Origin: Hespellia sp.
Lineage (GTDB): Bacteria; Bacillota; Clostridia; Lachnospirales; Lachnospiraceae
DNA length: 64,000 nt
Direction: 5' to 3'
Assembly: GCA_028689735.1 (NCBI GenBank)
Contig: JAQVCP010000005.1
Span: 1-64,000 of the forward strand
Under the pieces are notes generated by a model. That model was not told the DNA's origin, searched no databases, and worked only from the letters and a program-made list of their open reading frames with translations. The position numbers and the translations under genes are program-made. Below are positions 8,680 through 50,825 of the stretch, in pieces (positions within the stretch are counted from its first letter, which is position 1; the number at the start of each line of letters is the position of its first letter).

Positions 8680-8702
8680 ATTGACCCTCCTTTCCATGTG
8701 AC

Positions 8703-9308: not shown

Positions 9309-9355
9309 ACCTCCACAAGTTATTGAAGGAACGTGCCATCGTTACGAAGTTTTCC

Positions 9356-9404
9356 CTTCACTATCCTTGGGTCACGAAAATCCATTTTGAACGGATTTAT
9401 TTTT
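9356..9404 (-). repeat. Dispersed repeat copy (CGTTCAAA...TGACCCAAGGATAGTG)
   Basis: On the minus strand this reads AAATCCGTTCAAAATGGATT then TGACCCAAGGATAGTGAAGG. The same core occurs five more times at 42205-42626. ATCC and GGAT flank the TTCAAA to make a small hairpin. It lies 48 bp upstream of the HTH/zinc gene. Confidence 0.8.
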
Positions 9405-33693: not shown

Positions 33694-34942
33694 TGTTGCC
33701 CTCCACTTCTACTACCAATGCAGAATATGGAATCTGCTCTCCATCTCGAATGACATACACATTGTCTGCATCTCCTGTGTCCTCCACATATCTGCGGAGA
33801 ATAACAGATGCGTACTTTTCATCCAGTTCCATCGTATGACAGATACGATTTGTCTGCTCACAAGCCATAAGCGTTGAACCACTACCCCCAAAGGTATCTA
33901 CTACAATTCCATTTGCCTGACTCGAATTACCAATAGGGTATGCAAGCAAATCAAGTGGTTTTGAAGTAGGATGGTTTTTATTTCTCTTTGGCTTATCGAA
34001 GTTCCAAATGGTTGTCTGCGAACGGTCGGAATACCACGGATGTTTACCATTCTGTAAAAATCCGTAAAGCACAGGTTCGTGCTGCCATTGATAATCAGAA
34101 CGCCCAAGAACTAAGGAGTTCTTAACCCAAATGCAACAGCCTGCCAAATGAAATCCTGCATCCTGAAATGCCCTACGGAAATTCAAGCCTTCTGTATCTG
34201 CGTGAAAAATATAAGCAGCTCCACCTTTTTCAAGATGTGCTGCCATGTTCTTAAATGCCTGTAACAGGAAGTTATAAAATTCCTCGCCTTTGATACTGTC
34301 GTTCTGAATAGTAAGGCCATCGGAACTTTGGAAAGATACACCGTATGGTGGGTCTGATACGATAAGGTTTGCTTTCTTACCATCCATCAGCGTTGCCACA
34401 TCTTCCTCACTTGTGGCATCTCCACACATGAGTCTGTGTCTGCCAACCTGCCAGACATCTCCTCTTTTTACGAAGGCAGCCTTTTCAAGTGCATCGTTTA
34501 AATCGAAATCATCATCTTCGACTTTGTCATCTTCCGTACCAAAAAGGTCTGCAATTTCCTGTTCCTCAAAACCTGTAAGTCCGATATCGAAAGCCTCTGC
34601 CTGTAAGGCTTCAATTTCAATACGCAAGAGTTCTTCATCCCAGCCTGCATCCTGTGCCATTCTGTTGTCGGCAATGATATATGCTTTCTTCTGTGCCGGG
34701 GTAAGATGGTCAGCTAAAACACACGGAACTTCCTCAATATGCTCCTCTTTGGCTGCCATCACTCTTCCGTGACCTGCAATAATATTGTAATCCCCATCAA
34801 TGATGACAGGGTTGATGAACCCGAACTCACGGAGCGAAGCACGAAGTTTATTTATCTGCTCTGCATTATGGGTACGGGCATTATTCACATAAGGTATCAA
34901 TTTGTCAATTGATACAAGTTTCATTTCTGTTGTAGTCTGCAT
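33686..34942 (-). CDS. ParB-like and DNA (N4/N6) methyltransferase fusion
   Basis: A 418-residue protein. Residues 1-130 are a ParB/sulfiredoxin-like domain (IDKLIPYVNNARTHN, IAGHGRVMAAKE). Residues about 165-400 are an amino methyltransferase with SDPPYGVSF (catalytic DPPY) and TFGGSGSTLMAC (SAM site). The DPPY form favours adenine N6 methylation. Such fusions are frequent in the packaging region of Firmicutes phages. Translation is coupled to the m5C enzyme downstream, and a SAM synthetase gene lies 10 bp upstream. Confidence 0.92.
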   Translation of the reverse strand: MQTTTEMKLVSIDKLIPYVNNARTHNAEQINKLRASLREFGFINPVIIDGDYNIIAGHGRVMAAKEEHIEEVPCVLADHLTPAQKKAYIIADNRMAQDAGWDEELLRIEIEALQAEAFDIGLTGFEEQEIADLFGTEDDKVEDDDFDLNDALEKAAFVKRGDVWQVGRHRLMCGDATSEEDVATLMDGKKANLIVSDPPYGVSFQSSDGLTIQNDSIKGEEFYNFLLQAFKNMAAHLEKGGAAYIFHADTEGLNFRRAFQDAGFHLAGCCIWVKNSLVLGRSDYQWQHEPVLYGFLQNGKHPWYSDRSQTTIWNFDKPKRNKNHPTSKPLDLLAYPIGNSSQANGIVVDTFGGSGSTLMACEQTNRICHTMELDEKYASVILRRYVEDTGDADNVYVIRDGEQIPYSALVVEVEGNNE

Positions 34943-34951
34943 ACTCCACCT

Positions 34952-35734
34952 CTAATACAATCCCCATTCGGCAAACTTCTCAAAGCCACCGATGGAACGA
35001 ATAAATGCTCTCGCTTCTTCTACGATTTCTGCATAAGGAATGCCGCCAATCATCACATCACCAATTGCACAGCAGATTTCCACAGGCTTTCCCGTTTTCT
35101 GTGCTTTCAAGAATGCATGAATGTTTAAAGACACATCTGCTTTCGACAAATCCTTACCATGTAAACCACCACCCGTTACTGCATCAGCCATATCAGAGCC
35201 TAGCTTTCGATTGGTAGCACCTGTATCTACATCCGTACCACCAGTCCAATCACCGATAGGGTTTACTTCGGCAAATCCGTATTTCTGTTCTAATGCTTTT
35301 CTGTCTGCATTACTCTGACAGATAATAAGTCTGCTGCCATCAAGGATGTATTTACCATCGGTCGGATACTCCTCATAAACCTCACGGGCAATTTCAGACA
35401 GAGTTCTCTGTTCCTTTGTAAGAGGCATTCCTTTGAAGATACCATTATCTCCACAACGAACCTCTACCGACTGATTATGTGAAAGATGCACATCCTGTGG
35501 AACAATCACAATATCCGTTTTCATTTCTCCTGCAATACGCTTGATTGCCTGTTTCACTACTTCCTCATCAATATGAGCAGAGGTTTCGATAATCGCATGG
35601 CACACACCATGTCCAATTAAGACCTCAACTGCAATCTTAGGATTTTCTTCTGTTTCATAAGCCAAATCAACAATGGCTCCTGCTATTCTGTCAGCCACCT
35701 TGTCCGGATGGCTTGGATTTACTTTTTCAATCAT
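34952..35734 (-). CDS. metK-like: Short S-adenosylmethionine synthetase (MetK-like)
   Basis: A 260-residue protein against about 380-400 for cellular MetK. The start (SHPDKVADRIAGAIVD), the middle (GDNGIFKGMPLT) and the phosphate-binding region (VTGGGLHGKDLSKADVS) match the family, so the shortening is by internal loss rather than a broken end. It makes SAM from ATP and methionine. Placed directly before two methyltransferases, it presumably supplies or channels methyl donor during infection. It starts 1 bp after the small terminase stop. Confidence 0.88.
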   Translation of the reverse strand: MIEKVNPSHPDKVADRIAGAIVDLAYETEENPKIAVEVLIGHGVCHAIIETSAHIDEEVVKQAIKRIAGEMKTDIVIVPQDVHLSHNQSVEVRCGDNGIFKGMPLTKEQRTLSEIAREVYEEYPTDGKYILDGSRLIICQSNADRKALEQKYGFAEVNPIGDWTGGTDVDTGATNRKLGSDMADAVTGGGLHGKDLSKADVSLNIHAFLKAQKTGKPVEICCAIGDVMIGGIPYAEIVEEARAFIRSIGGFEKFAEWGLY

Positions 35735-35735
35735 G

Positions 35736-36275
35736 TTATATTCCTTTCCGTGTACGAAGGAGTCTTTCCATCACATCGTCCTGTGGTGTTGCCCCGGAAA
35801 ATTCCACCGAGCAGTTCTCCTTTACCACTTGAAAAATCTGATACCAAATCTGGTTCACTTGTTTCATGTACTGCTGCGACATCGCAACATACGGACTGGC
35901 TATGGCATTTCCGGTAGTTGGGTGCTTTGCAAGGAAGCCAAATTCACTTATGCATTCCTCACATTGGATCCAACGGGACACGCTCATCGCATACTGTTCT
36001 ATAAGCTGTATGTTGACGAGTCTTTCACAGCCTCTCTCTTTCAGCCAGTTCCAAGTTTCCTTATACACCTCTGCTGCACAGAGGTCTTTGCCAGCTTTCT
36101 GTTTGGATGTTAAATAATCTTTGATTGGCGGAACATCCTCGCCTGTGAATGTAGGCGGGTCTGGTAATGAAATAACGGTAGCTGACTGTCCATCGTTCAT
36201 TTTGTCGACCAAAGCCTTGGACTTTCGACCTGCTCCTACACGGGCACCGCCACGGTTTGTTCCGTCTTTTGCCAT
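35736..36275 (-). CDS. terS: Terminase small subunit (P27 family)
   Basis: About 179 residues from ATG at 36275 (GAGGAAAAT upstream). The N terminus NRGGARVGAGRKSKAL is the typical basic P27-type start; PPIKDYLTSKQKAGKDLCA and the helical C terminus fit small terminases. It recognises the packaging site and recruits the large subunit. A neighbouring HNH gene, at the usual cos-type position, suggests cohesive-end packaging (inference). Confidence 0.85.
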   Translation of the reverse strand: MAKDGTNRGGARVGAGRKSKALVDKMNDGQSATVISLPDPPTFTGEDVPPIKDYLTSKQKAGKDLCAAEVYKETWNWLKERGCERLVNIQLIEQYAMSVSRWIQCEECISEFGFLAKHPTTGNAIASPYVAMSQQYMKQVNQIWYQIFQVVKENCSVEFSGATPQDDVMERLLRTRKGI

Positions 36276-36390
36276 ATTTTCCTCACTTTCTAACGATTGG
36301 GGGTTTAATACCCTGTTTGATTTCCATAAAATGCGCGTGTGACCCCCACCCCGTTGCACGATATATTAGCTGTAGAGATTTGCACCGCCC

Positions 36391-36759
36391 CTACCCGCTG
36401 TTCTTATGCCAACGGTCTCCTCGTTCTGCGTGGATTCTTGAATGGCAAGACTTACATAAAGAAATAAGGTTACTTCTGTCATGTGTTCCACCTTCTGCCA
36501 AAGGTTTGATGTGGTGTACTTCTTCCACAGGAACGTACAATCCTTTCTCCAAACACTTCTCACACATTGGGTGGCTCTTCACATAAGAGTCCCTTATCCT
36601 TTTCCACACTCGTCCGTACCTACGGTTTACAGCAGCCTTGTCTCTGTCGTAAGTCTCGTAGCGTTTGTTCTCTTCCTTTTGATGTTGCTCACAGAACCTT
36701 CCGTATGTAAGGTTGGGACATCCCGGCTTGGAACACGGACGCTTTGGCTTCTTGGGCAT
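36391..36759 (-). CDS. HNH endonuclease
   Basis: About 122 residues from ATG at 36759 (AGGAGG 8 nt upstream; the GTG at 36768 is too close). Zinc-binding CEKC and CKSC frame the HNH site (VEEVHHIKPLAEGG, RSNLISLCKSCHSRIH). HNH proteins next to terminase genes assist cos cleavage in several siphoviruses. It is the first gene of the late operon. Confidence 0.9.
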   Translation of the reverse strand: MPKKPKRPCSKPGCPNLTYGRFCEQHQKEENKRYETYDRDKAAVNRRYGRVWKRIRDSYVKSHPMCEKCLEKGLYVPVEEVHHIKPLAEGGTHDRSNLISLCKSCHSRIHAERGDRWHKNSG

Positions 36760-36784
36760 CCTACTCACCTCCTATTTTTAGGCA

Positions 36785-36809
36785 TAAAGAAAGCCCTCAC
36801 AGTGGGGCT
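36785..36809 (-). terminator. Hairpin after the ArpU-like gene
   Basis: Minus strand AGCCC, 8-nt loop, GGGCT, then TTTCTTT. The stem is short (5 bp), so this is a weak terminator or attenuator between the regulator and the late operon. Confidence 0.5.
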
Positions 36810-36870
36810 GCCACCATGAAGGCTGTTCTGTTATCCATTTTGCTATGATAACAATATCACATATGGGAGT

Positions 36871-36906
36871 CGGACATTGCTGGACATTTACGGACATTTA
36901 CGGACA
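36871..36906 (-). repeat. Four TGTCC decamer direct repeats ahead of the late operon
   Basis: On the minus strand: TGTCCGTAAA, TGTCCGTAAA, TGTCCAGCAA, TGTCCG, in exact 10-bp steps. One helical turn per repeat indicates a protein-binding array on one DNA face. It starts at the very end of the ArpU-like gene and precedes the HNH-terminase operon. Confidence 0.75.
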
Positions 36907-37305
36907 ACTTATTTTATTTATTGCCCTATCGTGCCATCTTCTAATGGTTCTTTCATCAGCGTGAAGGACATCCCCAATCTGCGACCACGTATAATTCTTG
37001 ATATAACGGTAGGTCAGAACTATCTGTTCATCGTGGTTCTCCAATGTACCGATAACCTCCATGATTTCCTTCTTCGTAACAAGGAGGCTTTCCAACTTCT
37101 CCATATACTCCCTTTCGTACTCATCAATCTTAAGCAGGGTCTTGATATATGGGGCATCTGTATTTTTAGTCGCATTATAATGTTCTTCAAGACCAGGACT
37201 TCCAACCGATGATGCCAGTTCTCTTAATGTATCAATCTCCTCTTTCAAAAGAGCGATTCTTTGTTCCAAACGATAGGCTTGGCTTAAATATTCTCTTACT
37301 GTCAT
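36898..37305 (-). CDS. ArpU/DUF1492-like late transcription regulator, 135 aa
   Basis: N-terminal coiled coil (about residues 5-85), then a sigma-70 region-4-like HTH at the C terminus (YTWSQIGDVLHADERTIRRW). Such proteins activate late phage genes. It is the last early gene before the late operon, and the decamer array immediately after it is a plausible target. It overlaps the upstream 78-residue gene by 4 bp. Confidence 0.82.
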   Translation of the reverse strand: MTVREYLSQAYRLEQRIALLKEEIDTLRELASSVGSPGLEEHYNATKNTDAPYIKTLLKIDEYEREYMEKLESLLVTKKEIMEVIGTLENHDEQIVLTYRYIKNYTWSQIGDVLHADERTIRRWHDRAINKISCP

Positions 37306-37597: not shown

Positions 37598-38968
37598 TCA
37601 TTGATTTAGGTCAGCTTTAACCGCATCGATTAAAGCCGCCTGTGTATTGTCTTTATCAGACAACGCTTTTACGATTCGTTCATCTATCGTACCCTTGGAT
37701 ATAAGGTGGATGATTTTTACACAACTTGCCGTCTGACCTTGTCTATACAGACGGGCATTTGTCTGTTGGTATAATTCCAACGACCATGTGATTCCGAACC
37801 ACACAAGAGTTGAACCACCACTTTGTAGATTAAGGCCGTGCCCTGCTGATGCCGGATGCACAAGTGCCACAGGAAGTTCTCCCCTGTTCCATTTTTCAAT
37901 GGATGCATCTGTATCCAACTTCTGATACTTCACTCCTAAAGCATCCAGTCTTTTTTCAATTCTGGTAAAGTCGTGCTTGTACCAATAGGCAACCATAAGT
38001 GGCTGTCCGTTTGCCGCTTCGATAATATCTTCCAAAGCATCGAGCTTCTTATCATGGAATTCGATGTAGCTTTCATCATCTGTATAAACTGCACCGTTAG
38101 CCATCTGCGACAGCTTTCCTGAAAGTGATGCAGCATTGGATGCTGTAATTTCTCCTCCCGGAAGATTTAAGACAAGGTCTTTTTTCATTTCTTCGTATGT
38201 ATCCAGTTCACTTGCACTAAGGTACACTGGATATTCCGTACTGATAAGTTCTGGCATTTCCAAGTAGTCAGTTGCTTTCATGGAAATTGTGATGTCATCA
38301 ATCTTCTCATAAATCTGCTGCTCGGCTCCCGGTAACAGCTTGTAGGAATACACAATAGGTCCATTAACCCTGTCCGGCTTAAAGTAGTTAAGCCTGTACT
38401 GACCTATGAATCTTCCAAGTCTTGCTCCCATATCAAGCACCTTATATTCTGCAAACAAGTCCATCATGCCATTGGATGATGGTGTTCCGGTAAGACCAAC
38501 CATTCTCTTAACCATCGGTCTTACTTTCATAAGGGAACGGAATCGTTTGGACTGCCAGTTCTTAAAAGAAGAAAGTTCATCAATTACAACCATGTCATAA
38601 TCAAATGGCATTCCACTTTGCTCAATCAGCCACGGTACATTTTCACGGTTGATGATGTAAACATCTGCATCCTTCTGTAATGCTTTCTTTCGTTGTGCTA
38701 CTGTTCCAACCACTATGGAATAACGTAATCCTTTGAGATGTTCCCACTTCTCTATCTCTCCGCTCCATGTATGCTTTGCTACACGAAGGGGTGCAATGAT
38801 GAGAACCTTGGAAACCTCAAAGCTGTCATACATTAGTTCCATGATGGCAGTAAGGGTAATACTGCTCTTTCCCATACCCATATCAAGCAGGATTGCTGCT
38901 ATGGGATTTTTCTTTATAAACTCAATCGCATACTCTTGGTACGCATGAGGCTTATAGCATAATCTCAT
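37598..38968 (-). CDS. SNF2-type DEAD/DEAH helicase
   Basis: A 456-residue superfamily 2 helicase. Walker A LDMGMGKSS (about residue 30), DELSSF (motif II), TGTPSSNG (motif III), then HPASAGHGLNLQSGGSTLVW and ARLYRQGQ (motifs V and VI). It probably remodels DNA during phage replication or recombination. Its start overlaps the VRR-NUC gene by 17 bp, so the two may act together. Confidence 0.92.
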   Translation of the reverse strand: MRLCYKPHAYQEYAIEFIKKNPIAAILLDMGMGKSSITLTAIMELMYDSFEVSKVLIIAPLRVAKHTWSGEIEKWEHLKGLRYSIVVGTVAQRKKALQKDADVYIINRENVPWLIEQSGMPFDYDMVVIDELSSFKNWQSKRFRSLMKVRPMVKRMVGLTGTPSSNGMMDLFAEYKVLDMGARLGRFIGQYRLNYFKPDRVNGPIVYSYKLLPGAEQQIYEKIDDITISMKATDYLEMPELISTEYPVYLSASELDTYEEMKKDLVLNLPGGEITASNAASLSGKLSQMANGAVYTDDESYIEFHDKKLDALEDIIEAANGQPLMVAYWYKHDFTRIEKRLDALGVKYQKLDTDASIEKWNRGELPVALVHPASAGHGLNLQSGGSTLVWFGITWSLELYQQTNARLYRQGQTASCVKIIHLISKGTIDERIVKALSDKDNTQAALIDAVKADLNQ

Positions 38969-39256: not shown

Positions 39257-39492
39257 GTGAAGGTCGGTGACGGTCATTGTATAAACTCTTCCTATACGCA
39301 TTTTTTGACCTTATTTTTGCTATAGAATAGTTTTATATAGAGAGGTTCACCGACCTGCACTTTCCCATAAAATAAGGGTTTGTAGGACTTCTCTCTTTTC
39401 AAGAAAAGTTTAGGAATTGACCTTCACTGACCTGCACCTTGGCTTTTAATCTTGAAAAAGTTTAGGAAAAGACCTACACCGACCTGCACCTT
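39257..39492 (-). repeat. GACCT-type iteron cluster between VRR-NUC and primase
   Basis: This intergenic stretch of 260 bp holds four related sites: GTGAAGGTCGGTGA (39257), GTTCACCGACCTGCAC (39345), GACCTTCACTGACCTGCACC (39419) and GACCTACACCGACCTGCACC (39471). The last two sit in 45-bp direct repeats that also share AAGTTTAGGAA; the first is inverted. No ORF is supported here. It could be a replication origin or operator. Confidence 0.7.
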
Positions 39493-41758
39493 AGTCCAAG
39501 AAGTCTGAACCTGCTTTAAGCTGCAAGCCACGAACAATGACACCCTTATTGGATTTCTTTCTTTCATACCCAGCCTTCTCCATAGCGGAGTAAAAGTCTG
39601 TGGTACTTCTTGTGTACTCTCCGTTCTGAATGCAGTACGCACGATACTGCTGATAGATTTCCCCGGACTTCTCCGTATAGGTAGGGTCTGTTTCACAGCA
39701 TTCTGCAATGAAGTGACCAAGCCAGTCGTTATCCTCGCGGTAGGCCTGAATCGCATCTGACACACACTTTGGAAGTGGAGTCTTAAATCCTGCATCAATT
39801 GCTTTCTTGGCTCCTTCAATAATCCATGTGAGGATTGCCCCACCTGCATTTTCAAATAAGTAATCCGTGTAGTTCTTAATATCCGAACTTCCCGTAATGT
39901 GGGCATTAAACGGAATTACAATCAGACGTCTCCACGTTCCATCATCATTGGCTGACACACGAGGGAGATGGTTCGTATAAAGAACCAAGGTATGGCTCGG
40001 AATAAATTTGAATGGATCCTTGTACTTCTTCTCCGCAAAAACCTCATCAGTCGAGCAAAGCTGTTTTACAACTGCTGTGTTTAAACGCATCCCTTCTTCC
40101 ATCTCCGATGCAATGATTAAGCGTTTTCCCTTAAGTTCCGCCATCTCTGGTTTTACATTTCTCTTGCACCCAACCGTCAAAGTCTCAGCTGACAACTTAC
40201 CGCTGTATGTACCGAGAACTCTTGAGATAGTGTTCCAAAACGTAGACTTACCGTTGGCACCGCCACCATAAGCAATGATCAGGTGTTCCTGATACACTTT
40301 TCCGATTGCAGCCATTCCGACTACCATCTGTACATAATTGATGAGGTCTGCATCACCACAGAAGAAAAGCTGTAAGGCATCTTCCCAAATCTGCATACCG
40401 TCCTGTGATGGGGAGCATTCCGTAATTTTGGTAATAAGGTCTCTTGGGTCATGTGGTTGTTCTCCTGCAATGCCAAGCGTCAGATTGTAGGTAGCGTATG
40501 GTGTATTCAGCAGGTTCTCGTTCTTATCAAGGTCGTTTACATCTGCCGACAGCATTGGTTTTGCTGCATTAAGAGCAGAAGTTACATATTTCATGTCTCT
40601 GCGTTTCATAACAAAGGCAAAATACTGCTGTGCCGCCAAGAGCATATAAAAGGCCGGCAACTGGTCTCCCGTTACTTCCTTTTCAATCTTCTTTGCACCA
40701 CCCTTTACTACTTCTTCTGGAACACCCTTTGCTACGAGTAGTTTCTTAGCACGTTCAATCTCATCCGTGGCATCCTGCAACTGTAAATCCAAGAACTCTT
40801 CCATTGCTCCAACCGCTAACTGCTTATTTTCAATCCACACCTCACCATCGAAACGAAGGTAATCTGTAGCATTGGTAAAAAGCAGTTCATCTCCATACTC
40901 ACGGGTCAGCACCTTTGCCTGTCCGATGTCAGAGTAATCAGAAGGTTTTAAGGATTTATCCTCGCCCCCGAAATCGTCGTTGTAATCATCCGGCGGAACA
41001 TATCCATCCTGCCCCTGTATCTTCTTTGCAAATTTCACAGCACTGTACCAGATGGTCTTAAGTTCCTCATCTGATAATGGCGGGTCACACTTTTCAGCTT
41101 CTTCGAGAAAAATCTCGTGTGCTTTGTCTGTGGCGCCGTAGCGTTTCACTACTCTGCCTGCAAAACGGGAAAGGGTATTGTTTCTTGTACCCGCTTGGAT
41201 AACTCCACCTGTGGATGTATCCTCTTCCTCATCTGCGATTTCCACTTCTTCATCAATGTTTACCCAGCCTTCATGCCACACAATCTCTGTGCAATCGGCA
41301 CCATAGATAAAGCGAGCAGCATCTAATGCGTTTCCATCGAATACCGGAAATGCTTTGTGGATGGCTCTCTTTAATGCTGCGTAATCCTCTGCGTTGGTAC
41401 ACACACTAATTGGGAAGTAAGCGTGGTACTTCGGTCTTGGGGTCTGACCGTCTTTTGCCAACATATGATGGCGGCTAGGTGCCAAAGCATAGGAAATGTC
41501 TGGCATCATCTCGTCCAACATATCTGCCATAACCCAATCAGCAGGATTATCTGAATGGTCGTTATCCAAATCCATGACCACTACATCCGACTGAATGAAG
41601 TTACTGACATTTCTGTAGTTCTTCTGATATTCAGCACAAACGTGGTCGAACTTTACTGCATCAATCAACTCCTCTGCACTCGTTACCACGCATTTCTGTG
41701 GGTAAGTGCAGTTCTTGGCATTGCCGACACAGGCTGCGTTAAAAATCGTTAACTGCAT
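39491..41758 (-). CDS. D5-type primase-helicase
   Basis: About 755 residues from ATG at 41758 (AAAGGAGGAAG upstream). The N terminus carries a primase-polymerase-like site (VVVMDLDNDHSDN). A D5_N-type domain lies near residue 400, then an SF3 ATPase: AYGGGANGKSTFW (Walker A, about 515), and KRLIIASEMEEG (Walker B). The C-terminal DNA-binding part follows. It likely unwinds and primes the phage origin, perhaps at the iterons just downstream. Confidence 0.92.
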   Translation of the reverse strand: MQLTIFNAACVGNAKNCTYPQKCVVTSAEELIDAVKFDHVCAEYQKNYRNVSNFIQSDVVVMDLDNDHSDNPADWVMADMLDEMMPDISYALAPSRHHMLAKDGQTPRPKYHAYFPISVCTNAEDYAALKRAIHKAFPVFDGNALDAARFIYGADCTEIVWHEGWVNIDEEVEIADEEEDTSTGGVIQAGTRNNTLSRFAGRVVKRYGATDKAHEIFLEEAEKCDPPLSDEELKTIWYSAVKFAKKIQGQDGYVPPDDYNDDFGGEDKSLKPSDYSDIGQAKVLTREYGDELLFTNATDYLRFDGEVWIENKQLAVGAMEEFLDLQLQDATDEIERAKKLLVAKGVPEEVVKGGAKKIEKEVTGDQLPAFYMLLAAQQYFAFVMKRRDMKYVTSALNAAKPMLSADVNDLDKNENLLNTPYATYNLTLGIAGEQPHDPRDLITKITECSPSQDGMQIWEDALQLFFCGDADLINYVQMVVGMAAIGKVYQEHLIIAYGGGANGKSTFWNTISRVLGTYSGKLSAETLTVGCKRNVKPEMAELKGKRLIIASEMEEGMRLNTAVVKQLCSTDEVFAEKKYKDPFKFIPSHTLVLYTNHLPRVSANDDGTWRRLIVIPFNAHITGSSDIKNYTDYLFENAGGAILTWIIEGAKKAIDAGFKTPLPKCVSDAIQAYREDNDWLGHFIAECCETDPTYTEKSGEIYQQYRAYCIQNGEYTRSTTDFYSAMEKAGYERKKSNKGVIVRGLQLKAGSDFLD

Positions 41759-42174
41759 CTTTCTTCCTCCTTTAAATTCTCCGTGAAATAACGGATTTTC
41801 ATTCTTTTCTGTTTTGCTCTCGCAATTTCTGCTTCCATTCCTTCTGAAATAAAAGAACCGAATACCCAAATTTCTAAACAATGTGCAAGCAGAATCATGT
41901 CCATCTGCATTGCAAGGTCTCTTTCTGTCTTTTCATCCATGTATTGAGGAAGTAATAAATGCGGTGCTATCGGAATTGCACCTTGGTCTACAGCAAATCT
42001 GCTGTACTTTCGAGCCTTCATCGTGTTTCCATCTATGTCCCCGGAATATGGGGAGCAGATGTATACGATTGGACGAAACTTCTTCTCTTCCTTTTCCATA
42101 TTGGCTATTGCCTGAAAAGGTACTGGGTCGCTGTAGCCCTCTGCGTTTGTATAAGCTATCCCATCTGGTCTCAC
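41749..42174 (-). CDS. Nucleoside deoxyribosyltransferase-like protein (DUF4406 type)
   Basis: About 141 residues, with GTG at 42174 taken as start (VRPDGIAYTNAEGY). YICSPYSGDIDGN and IPIAPHLLLPQY are typical of the 2-deoxyribosyltransferase-like DUF4406 fold; EIWVFGSFISEGMEAEI carries the conserved Glu. It may act on nucleotides or sense them. The ORF-track extension to 42378 runs into the repeat array and is not real. It overlaps the primase start by 10 bp. Confidence 0.8.
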   Translation of the reverse strand: MRPDGIAYTNAEGYSDPVPFQAIANMEKEEKKFRPIVYICSPYSGDIDGNTMKARKYSRFAVDQGAIPIAPHLLLPQYMDEKTERDLAMQMDMILLAHCLEIWVFGSFISEGMEAEIARAKQKRMKIRYFTENLKEEERCS

Positions 42175-42204
42175 CCCTTTCGTTAAAAAATAATGAATTT
42201 TTCT

Positions 42205-42253
42205 CTTCACTATCCTTGGGTCACGAAACTGTGATTTGAACGGAATTATTTTT
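42205..42253 (-). repeat. Inverted copy of the dispersed repeat
   Basis: Read on the minus strand it has TCCGTTCAAA and TGACCCAAGGATAGTGAAG, like the copy at 9356-9404. It lies 31 bp upstream of the minus-strand GTG at 42174, in the direction of that gene. Confidence 0.8.
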
Positions 42254-42326
42254 AGAAAATCGAAAATTTTTGAGTTTCTTCCTTTTATATGCAAAAAACT
42301 GCTATGAAAAATTTTCAAAAAAGTCT

Positions 42327-42626
42327 CGTTCAAAACCGGATTTGCTGACCCAAGGATAGTGAAAGGCAATGAAGCCACAAAAAACTTCCTGAAAAAAAGT
42401 CAAAAAAAAATCCGTTCAAAACCGGATTTACTGACCCAAGGATAGTGAAAGGCAATGAAGCCACAAAAAACTTCCTGAAAAAAAAGTCAAAAATAATCCG
42501 TTCAAAACCGGATTTACTGACCCAAGGATAGTGAAAGGCAATGAAGCCACAAAAAACTTCCTGAAAAAAAAAGTCAAAAATAATCCGTTCAAAACCGGAT
42601 TTACTGACCCAAGGATAGTGAAAGGC
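42327..42626 (+). repeat. Tandem 86-87 bp repeats, three and a half copies
   Basis: The CGTTCAAAAC core recurs at 42328, 42414, 42500 and 42587, each followed by CGGATTT, then TGACCCAAGGATAGTGAAAG. The first three also carry GCCACAAAAAACTTCCTG and an A tract. Copies 2-4 are almost identical, pointing to recent expansion. They lie between divergent genes and point towards the plus-strand genes. Confidence 0.9.
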
Positions 42627-42656
42627 AAAAGAGCTAATCAGAAAGGTGGTGTTGAA

Positions 42657-42818
42657 ATGGCAGCTGATAACAGGGAAACATTCATCGAAGCATCAATTGA
42701 TGAAGAACTCGCAGACGTGCTTATAGCCATCAGCGTAATAACCAAAAGGCTGGCACGAAAAATCACAGAAAATCATATGTCAAAAGGAGAAAAGCAATGC
42801 ACGAAAACAACGGACTAA
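42657..42818 (+). CDS. Small acidic helical protein, 53 aa
   Basis: Starts at ATG 42657 (AAAGGTGGTG upstream). It contains SIDEELADVLIAISVITKRLAR, which looks like one long helix. The ORF-track start within the repeats is not real. It is the first plus-strand replication-region gene and overlaps the next by 22 bp. Function unknown. Confidence 0.7.
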   Translation: MAADNRETFIEASIDEELADVLIAISVITKRLARKITENHMSKGEKQCTKTTD

Positions 42819-43045
42819 AAGGCAAGACAATCAATGTCAAACACAAACACGGTCACACCGATGCGTACCCTTGGAATGGAATCGCTGTTCCGGTTCTTAT
42901 TACGGAAGAACACACAAACTTCTATGTTGGTACTGTCCTTCCACATCACGCACCTGGGGGATTTGGAATATCCCAACCTTATAACGTGACTCTGGACAAG
43001 CATGACCTTAAGGTCGGAAATCTCATCATCGTAGGAGGAAAGTAA
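42797..43045 (+). CDS. Hypothetical protein, 82 aa
   Basis: A beta-rich small protein (GIAVPVLITEEHTNFYVGTV, VGNLIIVGGK). No family recognised. AAAAGGAGAAAAGC precedes the ATG. It sits in a plus-strand run of overlapping replication genes. Confidence 0.7.
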   Translation: MHENNGLKGKTINVKHKHGHTDAYPWNGIAVPVLITEEHTNFYVGTVLPHHAPGGFGISQPYNVTLDKHDLKVGNLIIVGGK

Positions 43046-43047
43046 AA

Positions 43048-43452
43048 ATGGGAAAAATGAAGGAACTTTCAGCAATTTTGGACAGCATGGTCGAGTGTGG
43101 CAACGCATTAGTAACATCAGCCAATGCACTCAAAGACTTATGTGAAAACATCGTATCTTGTGGAAACACACTACAGAATGCGGCTAACGCACTTAAAGAT
43201 TTCTACTCTTCTGTTACAGAAGAAGAACCAAAAGCTGCACTTCCTAAAAAGGAAACCGCACCAAAGAAAGAAACTGAAAAGGTATACACCCTTGAGGAAG
43301 TCAGAGCAATCCTCTCAGCTAAATCCAAAGCCGGGTTCAGAGAGCAGGTCAAAGAAATGATTACCAAACGTGGTGTAGATAATCTCACAAAATTGGATCC
43401 ATCAGAGTATCCATCACTCGTAAAAGAAGTGGAGGGACTCACCAATGGCTAA
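43048..43452 (+). CDS. Hypothetical phage protein, 134 aa
   Basis: The N-terminal half has two copies of a short pattern (CGNALVTSANALKDLCENIV and CGNTLQNAANALKDFYSSVT). A Lys/Pro/Glu-rich linker follows (KKETAPKKETEK). The C-terminal part (YTLEEVRAILSAKSKAGFRE) is a helical domain common in Firmicutes phage replication clusters. Its exact role is unknown. GGAGGAAAG precedes the ATG; the end overlaps the DUF2800 gene. Confidence 0.75.
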   Translation: MGKMKELSAILDSMVECGNALVTSANALKDLCENIVSCGNTLQNAANALKDFYSSVTEEEPKAALPKKETAPKKETEKVYTLEEVRAILSAKSKAGFREQVKEMITKRGVDNLTKLDPSEYPSLVKEVEGLTNG

Positions 43453-44587
43453 ACACGCACTCTTATCAGCATCAGCCAGTCATCGTTGGATGAACTGTCC
43501 ACCAAGTGCAAAGCTGTGTGCTGTTGAAGAAAATAAATCCAGTCCATATGCCCAGCAAGGCACGGACGCACACGAACTCTGCCAGTACAAGGTAGAACAC
43601 GCATTAGGAAGAGATGTGTCTGACCCTACTGCAAACCTTGAGTTCTTTGATACGGAAATGGATTACTGCTCCGACCAATACTGCTCCTATGTTATGGAAC
43701 AGTTGGCGGCTGCCAAAGAACTCTGCAACGACCCTGAAATCCTAATCGAGCAACGCTTGGACTTCTCCAAGTGGGTGCCAGAAGGTTTCGGTACTGGAGA
43801 CTGTGTCATCGTAGCCGATAAAGAAATCCATGTAATCGACTACAAGCACGGACTTGGAGTTCTGGTATCGGCAGACAACAACTCCCAAATGCTGTGCTAT
43901 GCACTTGGAGCCTTGGAGTTGTTCGACGGAATCTATGATATTCAAACAGTTAAAATGACCATCTTCCAACCTCGTAGGGATAACGTAAGTACATACGAAA
44001 TCTCCAAGGAAGAATTACTAAAATGGGCAGATGAGGTTCTTGCCCCTACCGCACAGCTTGCCTTTAATGGCGAGGGAGAATTTAGTGCGGGAGAACATTG
44101 CCAGTTCTGTCGTGTCAAAGCGACCTGCCGTAAACGTGCAGAGGAAAACTTGAAACTGGCTCAGTATGATTTCGAGATGCCTATTAACCTTAATGATACA
44201 GAAATTGCCGCTATCCTTTCACAGGTGGACGAGCTGGTATCGTGGGCTAATGACATTAAAGAATATGCACTTCAACAGGCCTTAAGCGGAACAGAATATG
44301 AAGGCTTTAAGGTAGTCGAAGGAAGGTCAATCCGTAAGTACACCGATGAGGATGCTGTGGCTTTCATCGTAAAAGACCACGGATTTGACCCTTACGAGAA
44401 GAAACTTCTCGGTATCACAGCAATGACCTCGCTTCTCGGTAAGAAGAAGTTTGAGGAACTCTTAAGTGGACTAATTGCCAAGCCACCGGGCAAACCAACA
44501 CTCGTGCCAATCTCAGACAAACGACAGGCAATGAGTACAGCCAAAGAAGATTTCAAAGAAAATGAAGGAGGACAAGACAATGGCTAA
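43445..44587 (+). CDS. DUF2800 family Cas4/RecB-like nuclease
   Basis: A 380-residue protein. The N terminus SASASHRWMNCPPSAKLC and QGTDAHELCQYKVE are hallmarks of DUF2800. Nuclease motif: GTGDCVIVADKEIHVIDYKHG (GxxD ... DYK). The Cys group CQFCRVKATC may bind Fe-S, as in Cas4 and AddB. It probably processes DNA ends for phage recombination together with the DUF2815 protein encoded next. Confidence 0.88.
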   Translation: MAKHALLSASASHRWMNCPPSAKLCAVEENKSSPYAQQGTDAHELCQYKVEHALGRDVSDPTANLEFFDTEMDYCSDQYCSYVMEQLAAAKELCNDPEILIEQRLDFSKWVPEGFGTGDCVIVADKEIHVIDYKHGLGVLVSADNNSQMLCYALGALELFDGIYDIQTVKMTIFQPRRDNVSTYEISKEELLKWADEVLAPTAQLAFNGEGEFSAGEHCQFCRVKATCRKRAEENLKLAQYDFEMPINLNDTEIAAILSQVDELVSWANDIKEYALQQALSGTEYEGFKVVEGRSIRKYTDEDAVAFIVKDHGFDPYEKKLLGITAMTSLLGKKKFEELLSGLIAKPPGKPTLVPISDKRQAMSTAKEDFKENEGGQDNG

Positions 44588-45143
44588 TATGAGTATTCCT
44601 ACTAAGGTAATCACAGGCGTGAATACCAGATGGTCCTTTGTTAATGCATGGGAACCAAAATCAATCAATGGAGGTGCACCTAAATACAGCGTGTCCCTCA
44701 TCATCCCAAAGGATGATATTGCAACTATCAACAAGATTAAGGCAGCTATTCAGGCGGCTTACGAAGAGGGCGAGTCTAAACTTAAGGGTAATGGAAAGAC
44801 AGTTCCTGCTCTCTCCGTTCTTAAAACTCCACTTCGCGATGGCGATTTGGAACGTCCAGACGATGCGGCATATGCAAATGCATATTTCGTAAATGCTAAT
44901 TCCGCTACTGCTCCTGGTATCGTAGATGCAGACAGACAGCCTATCCTTGAACGTTCAGAGGTTTACTCTGGTGTATATGGTAGAGCATCTATCAACTTCT
45001 ACGCATTCAATTCAAATGGCAATAAAGGTATTGCCTGCGGATTGAATAACTTGCAGAAGATTCGTGACGGAGAGCCTTTAGGCGGCAAGTCTCGTGCAGA
45101 GGATGACTTCGCAACTTCTGATGAGGACGATTTCCTCTCATAA
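44580..45143 (+). CDS. DUF2815 family ssDNA-binding-like protein
   Basis: About 187 residues from ATG at 44580 (GGAGGACAAG upstream), overlapping the DUF2800 gene by 8 bp. VNAWEPKSINGGAPKYSVSL and SGVYGRASINFYAFNSNGNK are typical of this OB-fold family, with a strongly acidic C terminus (DDFATSDEDDFL) as in single-stranded DNA-binding proteins. It likely coats ssDNA in phage recombination or replication. Confidence 0.87.
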   Translation: MANMSIPTKVITGVNTRWSFVNAWEPKSINGGAPKYSVSLIIPKDDIATINKIKAAIQAAYEEGESKLKGNGKTVPALSVLKTPLRDGDLERPDDAAYANAYFVNANSATAPGIVDADRQPILERSEVYSGVYGRASINFYAFNSNGNKGIACGLNNLQKIRDGEPLGGKSRAEDDFATSDEDDFLS

Positions 45144-45183
45144 ATAACTCGTAACCAACTGGTGGCACAATTGGTATCCACGT

Positions 45184-45222
45184 GGTGGCAAGGCAAACCG
45201 CCTTGCTGCCACTATTTTTTTA
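45184..45222 (+). terminator. Intrinsic terminator upstream of polymerase gene
   Basis: GTGGCAAGGC, 5-nt loop, GCCTTGCTGCCAC and TATTTTTTT. The stem has one bulge of two or three bases. Polymerase transcription may depend on partial readthrough. Confidence 0.75.
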
Positions 45223-45238
45223 CAAGGAAGGTGACAAA

Positions 45239-47230
45239 ATGCGTAAAATTGGGACTTTATCGATTGATATTGAAACTTATTCAAGTATAGATCTGGCAAA
45301 ATGTGGTGTATATAAATACAGTGAATCCTCGGATTCTGAGGTTTTACTCTTTGCATATTCTGTTGATGGCGGACCCGTTATTGTAATTGATGTAGCAAAC
45401 GGAGAATCCATACCGGATGAAATATTACAAGCACTTGTTGATGATTCCGTTATCAAATGGGCGTTCAATGCTGCATTCGAGAGAGTGTTCCTCTCCATTT
45501 GGCTAAAACGTAACTACCCGGAACTCTTCTGCTCTTACAGTATCCCGGAAGATTCCGTTGGAAACTATCTCGACCCATCTGCTTGGAGATGTTCCATGAT
45601 CTGGTCAGCATATATGGGACTCCCACTTTCGTTGGAAGGTGTCGGTGCTGTTCTTGGCTTAGAAGAACAGAAACTAAAGGAAGGCAAAGACCTCATTCGT
45701 TACTTCTGCAAGCCTTGTGCAGCAACCAAGGTCAATGGCGGCAGAACCCGTAATCTACCGGAACACGCACCCGATAAATGGGAATTATTCAAAGCGTATA
45801 ATAAAAGGGATGTTGAGGTTGAAATGAATATACAGAAGAAACTCTCCCACTATCCTGTTCCTGAGTTTGTATGGGAAGAATACCACCTCGACCAAGAAAT
45901 CAATGACAGAGGCATTGCTCTTGATATGGATGTTGTAGAAAATGCTATTAAGATTGATGCCATCAGCAAAGCAACTTTAATGGCTACAATGCAGGATTTA
46001 ACAGACCTTGAGAATCCAAACTCCGTAGCACAAATGAAAAGTTGGCTTGCTGCAAAAGGCATTGATACCGACTCTCTTGATAAAAAGGCTGTTGTAGAAT
46101 TACTTAAAACCGTACCAACCGATGTGGCTGATGTTCTTACACTTCGTCAGCAGCTCGCCAAATCATCTGTAAAGAAATACCAAGCCATGCAGAATGCTGT
46201 GTGTGATGATGGACGAGCAAGAGGTATGTTCCAGTTCTATGGTGCGAATAGATCAGGACGATGGGCAGGTCGTATCATTCAGTTACAGAACTTACCACAG
46301 AACCACATGGAAGATTTGGATGTTGCCCGTGAGCTGGTAAAAGATGGAGATTACGAAATCCTCAATATGTTCTATGACAATGTTCCGGGAGTTCTTTCCG
46401 AACTCATCCGTACAGCATTTATTCCAAGAGACGGGTATAAATTTGCAGTAGCAGACTTTAGTGCTATTGAAGCAAGAGTCCTCTCCCACCTTGCCAAAGA
46501 AAAATGGCGTTCAAAGGTCTTTGCAGACAATGGGGATATTTATTGTGCATCTGCATCTGCGATGTTCGGAGTTCCGGTAGAAAAACACGGCCAGAACTCT
46601 CATCTGCGTCAGAAAGGTAAAATCGCAGAATTAGCATTAGGTTACGGTGGCTCTGTCGGAGCATTGACCGCTATGGGAGCATTGGATATGGGAATTGCTG
46701 AAGAAGAACTCCAACCTCTTGTTGATGCTTGGAGAGCTGCCAACCCAAACATCGTACAGTTTTGGTGGGATGTTGACAATGCAGTAAAACGTGCTATTAA
46801 GGAGCGTACTGCTACAGAGACCCACGGCATCCGCTTCATCTACAAAAGTGCCATGCTCTTCATCGTTCTTCCATCCGGCAGACGATTGGCTTATGTGAAA
46901 CCTCGCATCGGAGAGAATAAGTTCGGCGGTGAGTCAGTCACTTACGAAGGTGTCGGCACAAATAAAAAATGGGAACGCATCGAATCATACGGTCCCAAAT
47001 TTGTCGAGAATATCGTGCAGGCAATCAGCCGTGACATTCTCTGCTATGCACTTCGCACCTTAAGTCATTGTTTCATTGTAGGTCATGTACACGATGAAGT
47101 TATCATCGAATGCAGACAGGATGCATCCTTGGAGGCTATCTGCGAACAGATGGGACGTGTTCCAGAATGGATTGAAGGCTTACTGCTCCGCGCTGATGGC
47201 TATGAAACACAATTTTATAAAAAGGATTAA
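45239..47230 (+). CDS. Phage DNA polymerase A with 3'-5' exonuclease
   Basis: About 663 residues from ATG at 45239 (CAAGGAAGGTG upstream). Exonuclease motif LSIDIETYSSIDL at the N terminus. Polymerase motif A VADFSAIEARVLSHLA, the finger helix (LGYGGSVGALTAMGA) and motif C VHDEVIIE are present. It replicates the phage genome. The stop is followed by a shared terminator facing the convergent sigma-like gene. Confidence 0.93.
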   Translation: MRKIGTLSIDIETYSSIDLAKCGVYKYSESSDSEVLLFAYSVDGGPVIVIDVANGESIPDEILQALVDDSVIKWAFNAAFERVFLSIWLKRNYPELFCSYSIPEDSVGNYLDPSAWRCSMIWSAYMGLPLSLEGVGAVLGLEEQKLKEGKDLIRYFCKPCAATKVNGGRTRNLPEHAPDKWELFKAYNKRDVEVEMNIQKKLSHYPVPEFVWEEYHLDQEINDRGIALDMDVVENAIKIDAISKATLMATMQDLTDLENPNSVAQMKSWLAAKGIDTDSLDKKAVVELLKTVPTDVADVLTLRQQLAKSSVKKYQAMQNAVCDDGRARGMFQFYGANRSGRWAGRIIQLQNLPQNHMEDLDVARELVKDGDYEILNMFYDNVPGVLSELIRTAFIPRDGYKFAVADFSAIEARVLSHLAKEKWRSKVFADNGDIYCASASAMFGVPVEKHGQNSHLRQKGKIAELALGYGGSVGALTAMGALDMGIAEEELQPLVDAWRAANPNIVQFWWDVDNAVKRAIKERTATETHGIRFIYKSAMLFIVLPSGRRLAYVKPRIGENKFGGESVTYEGVGTNKKWERIESYGPKFVENIVQAISRDILCYALRTLSHCFIVGHVHDEVIIECRQDASLEAICEQMGRVPEWIEGLLLRADGYETQFYKKD

Positions 47231-47263: not shown

Positions 47264-47779
47264 TTAATCTAATTTCTTTTTCAATTCCTTAAGCAGCTTG
47301 TCCTTTCTGCCATGCAAAGTTGTCTGTGGAATTCCAAACTCTGCTGCCATCTCACGTTCCGTCTTTTCCTCTGCAATTCCCTTACAGATACGCTTCTTTT
47401 CATCTGTTAATTTCTCACATTCTGCAAGTAAATCTTTAACCAACATAAGGTCTGAAACTACATTAGCTGGGTCGTTTTCATCTGTTGCAGCATCATAGCC
47501 TTCTTCTACAAGTGCATCATAAGAAGTTTCATTTTCATTCTGTCTCTGCATCGCACGGATGTCTTTTCGTGCCATAGCACACAATCCATCTGTCATACGC
47601 TTAGCTTCACTCTGTGAGTCCCCTTCCATAATCGCATAATAACGACCTACACCGTGCATCACAATCCAACGAACTGGAATCCCTAGATTTTCATAATACT
47701 GAATTGTTCCGTAGTCTTCCTCAAGAATTGGAATGTAGATTGGATTGTTAATAGTTACTAAATTAGCCTTCTTTGTCAT
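47264..47779 (-). CDS. Sigma-factor-like regulator, 171 aa
   Basis: Starts at ATG 47779 (GAGGACAAGC upstream). The N-terminal half (YGTIQYYENLGIPVRWIV) has no clear family; the C-terminal 60 residues hold a sigma-70 region-4-like HTH (TEREMAAEFGIPQTTLHGRK). Proteins of this kind are common beside phage polymerases. It is a candidate for reading the unusual element-specific promoters, but no evidence ties them. Confidence 0.75.
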   Translation of the reverse strand: MTKKANLVTINNPIYIPILEEDYGTIQYYENLGIPVRWIVMHGVGRYYAIMEGDSQSEAKRMTDGLCAMARKDIRAMQRQNENETSYDALVEEGYDAATDENDPANVVSDLMLVKDLLAECEKLTDEKKRICKGIAEEKTEREMAAEFGIPQTTLHGRKDKLLKELKKKLD

Positions 47780-48100: not shown

Positions 48101-48727
48101 ATGAGTAATCTGAATATTGATATATTGAATCAAAATATCCAAACCTTAATGGAACAAGAAGGTCTTACTCAACAACAACTGGCAGTAAAGATTGATATGT
48201 CGCAGCCAAACTTTAGTCGTGCTTTCAACAATAAAGGTGGACAACGATTTACCTTAGAACAAATCTGCAAAATTGCTGACCATTTTCATGTTTCCGTAGA
48301 TTTTCTTCTTGGTTTTGAAAAGCCTACAAACAAACTATCCGAAAAAGAAATATGTACACTATTTACTTCTCTTTTGGAGCAACGTAAACTTGTAAAATTT
48401 GATATTTCTCGTGAAGAAGAAATCTATACACCGTACAAAACATTTGATGGTTATCCAGATTGTGATACTGAAAAAAAATGCATACAGTACAACGGCTTTC
48501 TTTTTCCTAGTTACTTTGACATTGGTCCTACTGACCGATACACTGAAGACCAGTTGGATGATTTTCAATCTGACATCCTCTATGGCGGAAACAGTGATGA
48601 ATCCAATAAACGTATAAATGCATTCTTTGATAGGTACTTCCAAATCTACGATATGTATTTGCATAATCAAATCACTAAAGAATTCTTCCACGAAATAGTT
48701 GATAAGTTCCTTGCCGACCTATCATAA
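48101..48727 (+). CDS. XRE-type HTH regulator, 208 aa
   Basis: Starts at ATG 48101. Residues about 8-65 are a Cro/C1-type HTH (MEQEGLTQQQLAVKIDMSQP, LEQICKIADHFHVSVDFLLG). The rest is unlike classical repressors and has no recognised domain (FFDRYFQIYDMYLHNQITKE). It could be the lysogeny repressor or a regulator of the adjacent defence operon. It stands alone and is convergent with that operon. Confidence 0.83.
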   Translation: MSNLNIDILNQNIQTLMEQEGLTQQQLAVKIDMSQPNFSRAFNNKGGQRFTLEQICKIADHFHVSVDFLLGFEKPTNKLSEKEICTLFTSLLEQRKLVKFDISREEEIYTPYKTFDGYPDCDTEKKCIQYNGFLFPSYFDIGPTDRYTEDQLDDFQSDILYGGNSDESNKRINAFFDRYFQIYDMYLHNQITKEFFHEIVDKFLADLS

Positions 48728-48914: not shown

Positions 48915-50825
48915 TTATGCACAACCCGGAAGTTTGATTTTAATATTGGCATCTGTCAGCTTATCTTGCCATTGTTGTAAGGTATCATCTGGATGTTCAT
49001 CAATTACCCATCCTATCATAAAATTCTGCATACTTGGTACGCTTAAGTCATATCCTGCCTTTTTCATAAGGTCATGACTATAATGTTTCTCTAATTTTAA
49101 CCCGTTACATAATGCTACTGCTCTCTCTATTGTAATTTTAGGAGTAAGCGTATTTCTATATTCGCTAATAGACACCGTACTAATATTAGTTCTATATGAC
49201 AGTTCCTCATTTGTAATACCTTTACGATTCATGTGATAGTTTAAGGTACCAGAAAAACCACTTGGTATTTCAGTAGCTAATCTTCTCACTATGTCAGTCA
49301 CAGATTCCGATATTCTCTCTATCTCCTCTTTTCGTTGACTCTTGCTTTGGTTATCCTTATGATTAGGGTCATACTTTGCCTCGATAAAGGTTACTGAACT
49401 TACATCTCTACACAAGAAACACCTTCTGTAGAAAGAATCACTATATGTATCACTAGCATTAATCTTACGCTCAAACACATAACAACATTCGTGTACGTGC
49501 TCTAATGCATAATTTGTCAATATCGGAAGCCCTGTTTCGCTCTTCGTCACATACTTTGGAGCATTGATACATACCATACTGTTAGCGAATATCAATCTAC
49601 CCTCAAAATACATCGAGCGAAGTTCTTCCGACATAAAAATCTGAATCATGGCACTCTTTTCATCAATTACAAAAGTCTGATTAGGCTTTAACGTCCCTCT
49701 TGGGAAAGAGAACGGTGGAAGATATTTTCCATCTGAAAACACCTGCACACCATGTGCCTCATCATACCCCAATTCAATTACACGAATTTTAGCTGCAATC
49801 GCAGATACCATAAAGAAAGAAGCCAACTCTCCCACAGCTTGTTCCATCAATTCAGCATTTCGCATCATCGGATACTCAGCATGAAGTCTTCGCAAACATT
49901 CATCTAATTTTCTTTTGGTCATTTCTGCTGGCATAAGAATACGAGGTGCAAGCTGATTTGCCTGCCACTCCATCCACTTCAATGCAGGTGCATCCTCTGG
50001 AATTCCATCGTACACTTCCACTATTTCACATGAAATATGATTACATTCTCCTTGCAGAAGTTTTTGCAATTCAAACGGTTTACGATGTCTATCCCAATGT
50101 ACACACTCATGAATAATCGTGTTATTTGCTGTGCCAATATTATACATAAAATAGACATTTGGATTTATCAGCATTGTTCCAGGTTCTGTCACTATTTCGC
50201 AAGTTTCCTTGCGTAAAATATTAGTATATACAATGACCTTCTCGAATCCAAAATAAGTCTTACCAAATACACCTTCTTCCAATGGAGCAAAATATAGTTT
50301 CATCCCCATAGAAGATACAATCTCTTCTACAGGTAATGCCATTGGCTGCATAAGTGCCTTCGGATAATGTCTACGTAAGAAATCCTCTGCATGACGTTCT
50401 ACATCTTCTTCATACATATAAGGTACAAGATTTTGGCTAAGACTTCTATCTCGTTCATAACGACTTACATCATACTCTGAAACATTTGTAATTCTCACAT
50501 TATGAAGTCCGTTTTCTAATAATGCTCGGAAGAATATATTATAGCACTTGCAATCCTCAAATGTTTCATGTCCATATCTAGTTTTGCCTGCTACTTCTAT
50601 ATCAGCATCGACTGTGGCACGAATCTCCAGTTCATCATTTCCCATATCTTTAAAGGTAACTCCAGATACATGAATATCTTGTAAACTTACCCAAGTAACA
50701 TATGAAATTGCATCATTTTCAAAGCTATCCTTCGATTGCGTTGCAATATAGGAAGATAGCTTTGCCATCATATCATCTATAAAATTATCCTCTAGAAATG
50801 CTTTGAACGATTCGTATTTTGCCAA
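48915..50825 (-). CDS. ImmA/IrrE-type metallopeptidase with C-terminal HTH, 636 aa
   Basis: Zinc peptidase motif IIHECVHWDRHRK (HExxH, about residue 238). A metal-ligand Glu is likely in WMEWQANQLAPRILMP, which is typical of ImmA/IrrE. A C-terminal XRE HTH lies at about 540-600 (GITNEELSYRTNISTVSISE). The usual order is HTH first, so this one is reversed and enlarged; the N-terminal 170 residues are unassigned. ImmA/IrrE peptidases cleave repressors on a stress signal. As last gene of the restriction operon, it may couple it to infection or DNA damage (inference). Confidence 0.82.
   Translation of the reverse strand: MAKYESFKAFLEDNFIDDMMAKLSSYIATQSKDSFENDAISYVTWVSLQDIHVSGVTFKDMGNDELEIRATVDADIEVAGKTRYGHETFEDCKCYNIFFRALLENGLHNVRITNVSEYDVSRYERDRSLSQNLVPYMYEEDVERHAEDFLRRHYPKALMQPMALPVEEIVSSMGMKLYFAPLEEGVFGKTYFGFEKVIVYTNILRKETCEIVTEPGTMLINPNVYFMYNIGTANNTIIHECVHWDRHRKPFELQKLLQGECNHISCEIVEVYDGIPEDAPALKWMEWQANQLAPRILMPAEMTKRKLDECLRRLHAEYPMMRNAELMEQAVGELASFFMVSAIAAKIRVIELGYDEAHGVQVFSDGKYLPPFSFPRGTLKPNQTFVIDEKSAMIQIFMSEELRSMYFEGRLIFANSMVCINAPKYVTKSETGLPILTNYALEHVHECCYVFERKINASDTYSDSFYRRCFLCRDVSSVTFIEAKYDPNHKDNQSKSQRKEEIERISESVTDIVRRLATEIPSGFSGTLNYHMNRKGITNEELSYRTNISTVSISEYRNTLTPKITIERAVALCNGLKLEKHYSHDLMKKAGYDLSVPSMQNFMIGWVIDEHPDDTLQQWQDKLTDANIKIKLPGCA

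Follow-up and report, generated by a model that had tools for sequence, protein, structure and literature searches.

Genes and repeats in the window

The window (the whole stretch of 64,000 nucleotides that was analysed) contains a prophage with two divergent replication operons. The polymerase operon begins with a 53-aa ORF (phrog_3280; 42657-42818, +) and an 82-aa ORF that is kept in relatives (42797-43045, +), and continues with a DUF2800/PD-(D/E)XK nuclease-like gene (43445-44587, +), the gene of an Enc34-type ssDNA-binding protein (44562-45143, +) and that of a family A DNA polymerase (45182-47230, +; start codon uncertain). The leftward operon starts with a DUF7768 gene (41749-42210, -; start codon uncertain) and includes a D5/VirE-type primase-helicase gene (39491-41758, -), the start of which was inferred from sequence. 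An SNF2-type helicase (37598-38968, -) and a DUF1492/ArpU-type regulator (phrog_36; 36898-37305, -) are encoded further along the same strand. Beyond the polymerase gene lies the gene of a 171-aa sigma-like protein with a region-4-like C-terminus (phrog_13787; 47264-47779, -), and divergent from it the gene of an XRE/Cro-CI-type protein (48101-48727, +), the probable lysogeny repressor. A distant module on the minus strand encodes an HTH-zinc protein (phrog_2308; 8892-9302, -) and two large serine recombinases (7174-8697, - and 5612-7189, -). Two public phage records label members of the HTH-zinc family as RNA polymerase subunit sigma-70.

A Lnu(C)-type lincosamide nucleotidyltransferase gene (1874-2380, -; above the NCBIfam cut-off) and a gene for a ribosomal-protection ABC-F protein (2384-3982, -; below cut-offs) stand beside the serine recombinases, so that resistance genes adjoin the prophage end. 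Just past the XRE gene, McrBC-type restriction genes were found, together with a gene whose 636-aa HTH product weakly matches capP (50844-53341, - and 48915-50825, -).

The window contains the bipartite element CGTTCAAA-N11-TGACCCAAGGATAGTG in six copies. An exact-match count confirmed what the preliminary description had reported, namely four tandem copies, one inverted copy and one copy 33 kb away. The exact 16-mer TGACCCAAGGATAGTG lies on the plus strand at positions 42346, 42432, 42518 and 42605, and on the minus strand it occupies 42208-42223 and 9359-9374; the full bipartite matches cover 42327-42620 (+, tandem), 42242-42208 (-) and 9393-9359 (-). The tandem copies are spaced by 86, 86 and 87 bp. 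In shuffled sequence a mean of 0.62 matches to TGACCCAAGGATAGTG with three or fewer mismatches was obtained and six were never reached, and for CGTTCAAA and TGACCCAAGGATAGTG at the fixed 11-bp spacing six occurrences were observed against 0 expected. No other good copy was present in the 3.69-Mb host assembly, the sole extra match being a 16-mer with two mismatches on another contig. In an alignment of the six copies CGTTCAAA and TGACCCAAGGATAGTGAA were invariant, and the spacer was mostly variable.

All six copies face the gene immediately downstream; the placement upstream of a gene and in its direction, noted in the preliminary description for single copies, holds throughout. With the form TCGTTCAAA-N11-TGACCCAAGGATAGTGAAAGG, the predicted promoters of the tandem array extend over 42326-42366, 42412-42452, 42498-42538 and 42585-42625 (all +). 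The last of these is closest to the polymerase operon, and the Shine-Dalgarno (SD) sequence begins about 16 nt beyond it. The predicted divergent promoter (42203-42243, -) is located 5' of the DUF7768-primase/helicase operon, and the predicted distant promoter (9354-9394, -) 5' of the HTH-zinc gene and the serine recombinases.

Two further features of the array region were observed. The tandem units can be read as overlapping mini-ORFs of the type GTG...TAGTG, and their translation was considered and rejected. It is contradicted by the relative L001, where the copy before DUF7768 reads GTG AAG AGA TAA, so that GTG is not a start codon there. The leader of the DUF7768 gene (about 42150-42185, -) contains, as in the relatives L001 and L003, a conserved SD sequence followed by a two-codon ORF, ATG GGA TAG/TAA, in a frame other than that of the DUF7768 gene.

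The element in related phages

With a pattern of exact bases only near-identical phages were retrieved; diverged relatives were reached by a degenerate pattern and by comparison of each phage with itself. The near-identical phages in IMG/VR have the same arrangement, the tandem copies numbering two or three. Upstream of HTH-zinc homologues a diverged, clearly homologous element, CCGt(t/c)CAAA-N11-TGTCC(a/t)TAGGAAGTTagAgGG, was found. The degenerate search detected the element in many further prophages, among them a second one carried by the host genome (contig C13), in which the variant CCGCCCAAA-N11-TGTCCATAGGAA is present at 4/4 sites. This second prophage (20000-63500 of its contig; loci L127-L129) is of the same kind as that in the window and has a promoter variant and a factor of its own. 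As the two prophages carry different variants, they could be induced independently.

Altogether, records of Clostridia prophages that contain the bipartite element number in the dozens. A weight matrix was applied to 36 phage records (prophages and viral contigs; 1.63 Mb). It gave 73 matches scoring at least 24, while shuffled sequences gave none (top shuffled score 22.8). At a score of at least 19 there were 74 sites, and all were situated at three transcription units and faced the gene. The DUF2800-ssDNA-binding-DNA polymerase operon accounted for 39 of the 74 sites and the DUF7768-primase/helicase operon for 15; at 4 further sites a different gene, judged by eye to be a Rha/KilA-like antirepressor, lies or probably lies ahead of DUF7768. 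In the third unit, the HTH-zinc/serine-recombinase module, the HTH-zinc gene followed 12 sites, and the remaining 4 stood before a serine-recombinase operon in records with no HTH-zinc gene nearby. A tandem doublet with a distance of 71-87 bp precedes the polymerase operon in 18/18 records with paired sites, defined as sites on the same strand within 200 bp. The four-copy array of the window would therefore be an expansion of an ancestral doublet.

In the preliminary description a search for the core in related prophages had been suggested, and absence of the copies from relatives with the same genes was regarded as evidence against a function. This check came out in favour of the element, since the relatives possess it, in some cases in diverged form, at corresponding positions. 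The proposed role, in which a regulator encoded by the element acts at the site and connects replication with recombination operons, is likewise supported by the 74 sites at these operons in the 36 records.

Each phage uses one variant of the element at all of its sites, including the distant recombinase module; for the diverged variants this is based on 2-4 sites per phage and on block boundaries placed by hand. Even phages that share the replication genes but differ in the variant keep to their own at every site, which points to a trans-acting factor encoded by each phage. Ten other records (G158, G159, G161, G162, G167, G168, G169, G173, G174 and G175) each contain a repeated element of their own, which has a similar plan and a different sequence and is located before the HTH-zinc gene and at other places, in most cases a replication operon. 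These elements suggest that many more factor-promoter pairs exist.

The sigma-like protein encoded at 47264-47779

The reader of the sites is probably the sigma-like factor of the same module (47264-47779, -). Homologues were present in 12 of the 13 motif-bearing records first tested, and the exception, G155, has no replication module. With an iterated profile, and a homologue in G175 recognised by eye, the factor was found in all records with a complete polymerase among the 36 except G160. In five phages the factor gene is directly 5' of a site. G160 (loci L208-L210; about 29700-30000 and 34580-37150) has transposase-type genes, IS66-like by eye, after the polymerase gene, which occupy the position of the factor gene in relatives. 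Its replication region contains a different self-consistent repeat, AATAGGAAAAT..TTCCTTACTTACAGATTTAGAAGG, and its HTH-zinc site retains the old form.

The factors of the window and of the C13 prophage are 39-41% identical, compared with 78% for the polymerases; by this comparison the factor is a fast-diverging protein. Among 22 phages the distance between motifs correlated with that between factors (Mantel r=0.61, p=0.0005), and the partial correlation remained significant against each control gene (r=0.41-0.59). SNF2 barely tracked the motif (r=0.24). The linked polymerase (r=0.72) and DUF2800 (r=0.73) genes tracked it as well as the factor did, and the Mantel test therefore singles out the module and not the factor alone. 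The HTH-zinc protein, considered as a binding protein in the preliminary description, did not behave as expected of a reader, as motif distance does not follow its distance (r=0.13, p=0.21); it is regarded as a target gene. In some motif-bearing records the site stands immediately upstream of the serine-recombinase operon, and no HTH-zinc gene intervenes.

In a held-out test, 12 loci were picked by the factor only. The motif was present in 3-4 of the 12; it was clear in L264, L267 and L268, and a weaker, consistent pair was found in L276. Compared with the factors of C13 and G163, those of L264 (Petralouisia muris) and L267 show 63-72% identity, and both loci have four sites each of the C13/G163 motif type (CCGCCCA.., TGTCCATTGGATAGTG), of which 7/8 scored above 23. 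L268 has a divergent pair of sites, and in L276 the first site of the pair comes directly after the factor gene. No convincing site was found at 8 of the 12 loci, which mostly encode distant factors.

The C-terminal part of the factor resembles region 4 of sigma factors, which recognises the -35 element. It matched sigma70-ECF (TIGR02937) in 10 of 12 members, below the cut-off, and when the factor profile was compared with full sigma factors it aligned to region 4 only (97.5%). The fold model superposed on region 4 of sigma-E with -35 DNA (2h27; TM 0.74-0.77 of the target, 1.6 Å), with weak E-values at the library level (0.67). These results support an HTH of the region-4 type; since GerE-type HTHs matched the factor similarly, the assignment is not exclusive. 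In known sigma factors, region 2 opens the -10 region. No region 2 was found in the factor, the match to TIGR02937 beginning at position 64 of 165, and the protein is for this reason termed sigma-like and not a sigma factor. A first model had a mean pLDDT of 65.9 and a poor N-terminus; with 33 sequences the mean rose to 76.1 overall (pTM 0.36) and the N-terminus was modelled as a small alpha/beta domain, for which no confident fold match was obtained.

Candidate promoters, alternative readings and known systems

Among 63 non-redundant sites (51 effective), information was confined to positions 0-8 and 20-40 and to upstream A/T tracts; there was no second conserved -10 element and no conservation further up or down. 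The centres of the two blocks are about 22-23 bp apart, which is the spacing of -35 and -10 elements. In several sites a T-run stops 8-11 nt 5' of block 1, and the SD sequence starts 16-18 nt past block 2; in diverged families it almost abuts block 2. In some sites the T-run belongs, by eye, to a hairpin terminator. As the element in some phages fills the gap between T-run and SD sequence, the start site is expected in or just after the element. A scan for sigma-A promoters over 42100-42700 found none, and upstream of the distant copy there was a weak 9/12 match on the minus strand. The array thus presents two blocks at promoter spacing that face the gene without another core promoter, and on this geometry the copies are considered candidate promoters.

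The preferred reading, with a probability of roughly 0.6, takes the six copies as the core promoters through which the phage's sigma-like factor controls a prophage-specific regulon. Block 1 (CCGTTCAAA) would take the position of a -35 element and block 2 (TGACCCAAGGATAGTGAAGG) would span the -10 region and the start site, their distance being fixed by the 11-bp spacer. Host RNA polymerase and the sigma-like factor (47264-47779, -) would recognise the sites together. Upon induction of the prophage the factor gene, divergent from the gene of the XRE repressor and presumably controlled by it, would probably be expressed first. The factor would then switch on three units: the ssDNA-binding/polymerase operon through its tandem promoters, the primase-helicase operon through the divergent promoter, and the HTH-zinc/serine-recombinase module through the distant one. 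Since all three units would be fired by one factor, it is proposed that replication and excision begin together.

The sites might instead bind a phage activator, either the sigma-like protein or another member of the module, that works with the host sigma-A polymerase. Host sigma would then melt a poor -10 element in block 2, and the factor would replace the -35 contact only; the appropriation of sigma by AsiA and MotA of phage T4 is the model for such a mechanism. A region-4-like domain without a detectable region 2 would suit this role, and by inspection GATAGT in block 2 of the window shares 4/6 bases with TATAAT. Conservation of block 2 over about 20 bp, however, exceeds the needs of a -10 element, and a TATAAT-like hexamer is missing from most variants (GGAAGTTA, GGAACCAG). 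An activator of this kind is considered unlikely.

An iteron-type replication origin, raised in the preliminary description, would agree with an A/T-rich, repeated array between the primase-helicase and polymerase operons. The repeats are, however, not confined to such a region: the element stands singly, at a fixed place, before the recombinase module 33 kb off, in relatives too, and the array often has only two copies, with the strand fixed relative to the operon. Origin function as the main role is thus highly improbable.

Function of the element as RNA in the 5' leader, by antitermination or translation control, was judged equally improbable. The element is oriented with the gene and near the SD sequence, and some copies can form a hairpin. 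The change from ATCCG/CGGAT to AATCC/GGATT in the distant copy, in which the preliminary description saw a hint of RNA or DNA structure, is real, but it does not reflect a general structural feature. Exact hairpin arms of at least 5 bp occurred in 10 of 70 related sites (mean of spacer shuffles 1.3, maximum 5) and were missing from the other 60, including the minus copy of the window (42203-42243). The sites with arms belong to window-like phages or to the pair G149/G151, and with the hairpin in two phage groups only, the covariation expected of a structured cis-regulatory RNA was not found. Comparison with Rfam gave no plausible match, merely low-scoring ones of eukaryotic miRNA/snoRNA type. 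Moreover, the 8-11 nt between T-run and block 1 in several sites leave little space for a separate upstream promoter.

Three reversed copies on the minus strand (42408-42601), which could be counted for an RNA, resemble intrinsic terminators (0.8 expected), with AAATCCGGTTTTGAACGGATTT followed by a T-run, i.e. the A-tract read as T. The A-tract upstream of the copies may thus double as an antisense terminator, and this resemblance on the opposite strand may explain the hairpin arms.

The DUF1492/ArpU/Ltr-type protein (36898-37305) is disfavoured as reader of the sites, and the probability of this role is very small. The protein has a region-4-like HTH and is of a known type of phage activator, the usual late activator of Firmicutes phages. 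In the S. aureus phage phi13 the late promoter governed by an Ltr protein is preceded by direct repeats (PMC13123087). The sites described here are on early replication operons and not on a late operon, and the site variant does not follow the DUF1492 protein. Between the window and G147 this protein is 77% identical and the motif is different, while between the window and G177 it is 56% identical, the motif is identical and the factor is 88% identical. Its Mantel correlation (r=0.34) lost significance after correction for the factor (partial r=0.20, p=0.055), and several motif carriers, e.g. G148 and G149, have no DUF1492 match. A role of the sites as operators for the XRE lysogeny repressor is just as improbable: its gene is divergent from the factor gene and early operons are normal targets of repressors, but the element is non-palindromic and has a single orientation relative to the gene, and clear XRE homologues among motif carriers were restricted to G177 (61%) and G147 (32%).

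If the promoter reading is true, a simple induction rule would apply to a common group of Clostridia prophages, in which one small factor starts excision and both replication operons. The element would also be a DNA signature for detecting and assigning such regulons in phage genomes that lack annotation, matched factor-promoter pairs would be useful for the control of expression in gut anaerobes, and initiation by a protein without recognisable region 2 would become testable. More tentatively, a widespread family of gut-phage factors with a region-4-like part and a new N-terminal domain might direct full core promoters without region 2, as a matched pair in each phage that is orthogonal even between the window and C13 prophages in one cell.

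A phage sigma-like factor with cognate promoters is of an already known kind. In the open literature searched, the factor without a region 2 appears to be undescribed, as do the form of the promoters, the regulon and the variants used by single phages; no description of the motif or the factor family was found in the open-access literature, most subscription journals being outside its scope. Phage-encoded sigma factors include gp28 of SPO1 and Xpf of PBSX. Bacillus phages encode sporulation-like sigma factors (PMC9429907). Like these, the gene described here is a phage gene with sigma homology, the product of which is thought to redirect host RNA polymerase. It differs in having a region-4-like part only, together with an N-terminus without assignment, and its predicted, bipartite promoters depart from the sigma-A consensus and differ among phages.

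The Ltr/ArpU/RinA/DUF1492 late activators are also small phage activators that act on phage operons, and that of the window has a region-4-like HTH; their target is the late operon, whereas the sites described here are on early replication and recombinase operons. The phi13 promoter (PMC13123087) is a canonical sigma-A promoter with upstream repeats, and no such promoter was found at the array. Orf7 of Tn916 was considered as a possible analogue; the paper on it describes an up-regulator of xis/int and gives no evidence of sigma function. A profile search of related genomes also yielded small sigma-70-like proteins that probably belong to mobile elements (loci L149-L167). Their layout resembles that of the factor, with an SLD-like segment between a short N-terminus and a region-4-like HTH at the C-terminus; they differ in that for the more distant ones no cognate DNA sites were identified here. 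The likeness to AsiA/MotA of T4 would lie in the mechanism, in that a phage protein could take over recognition of the -35 element.
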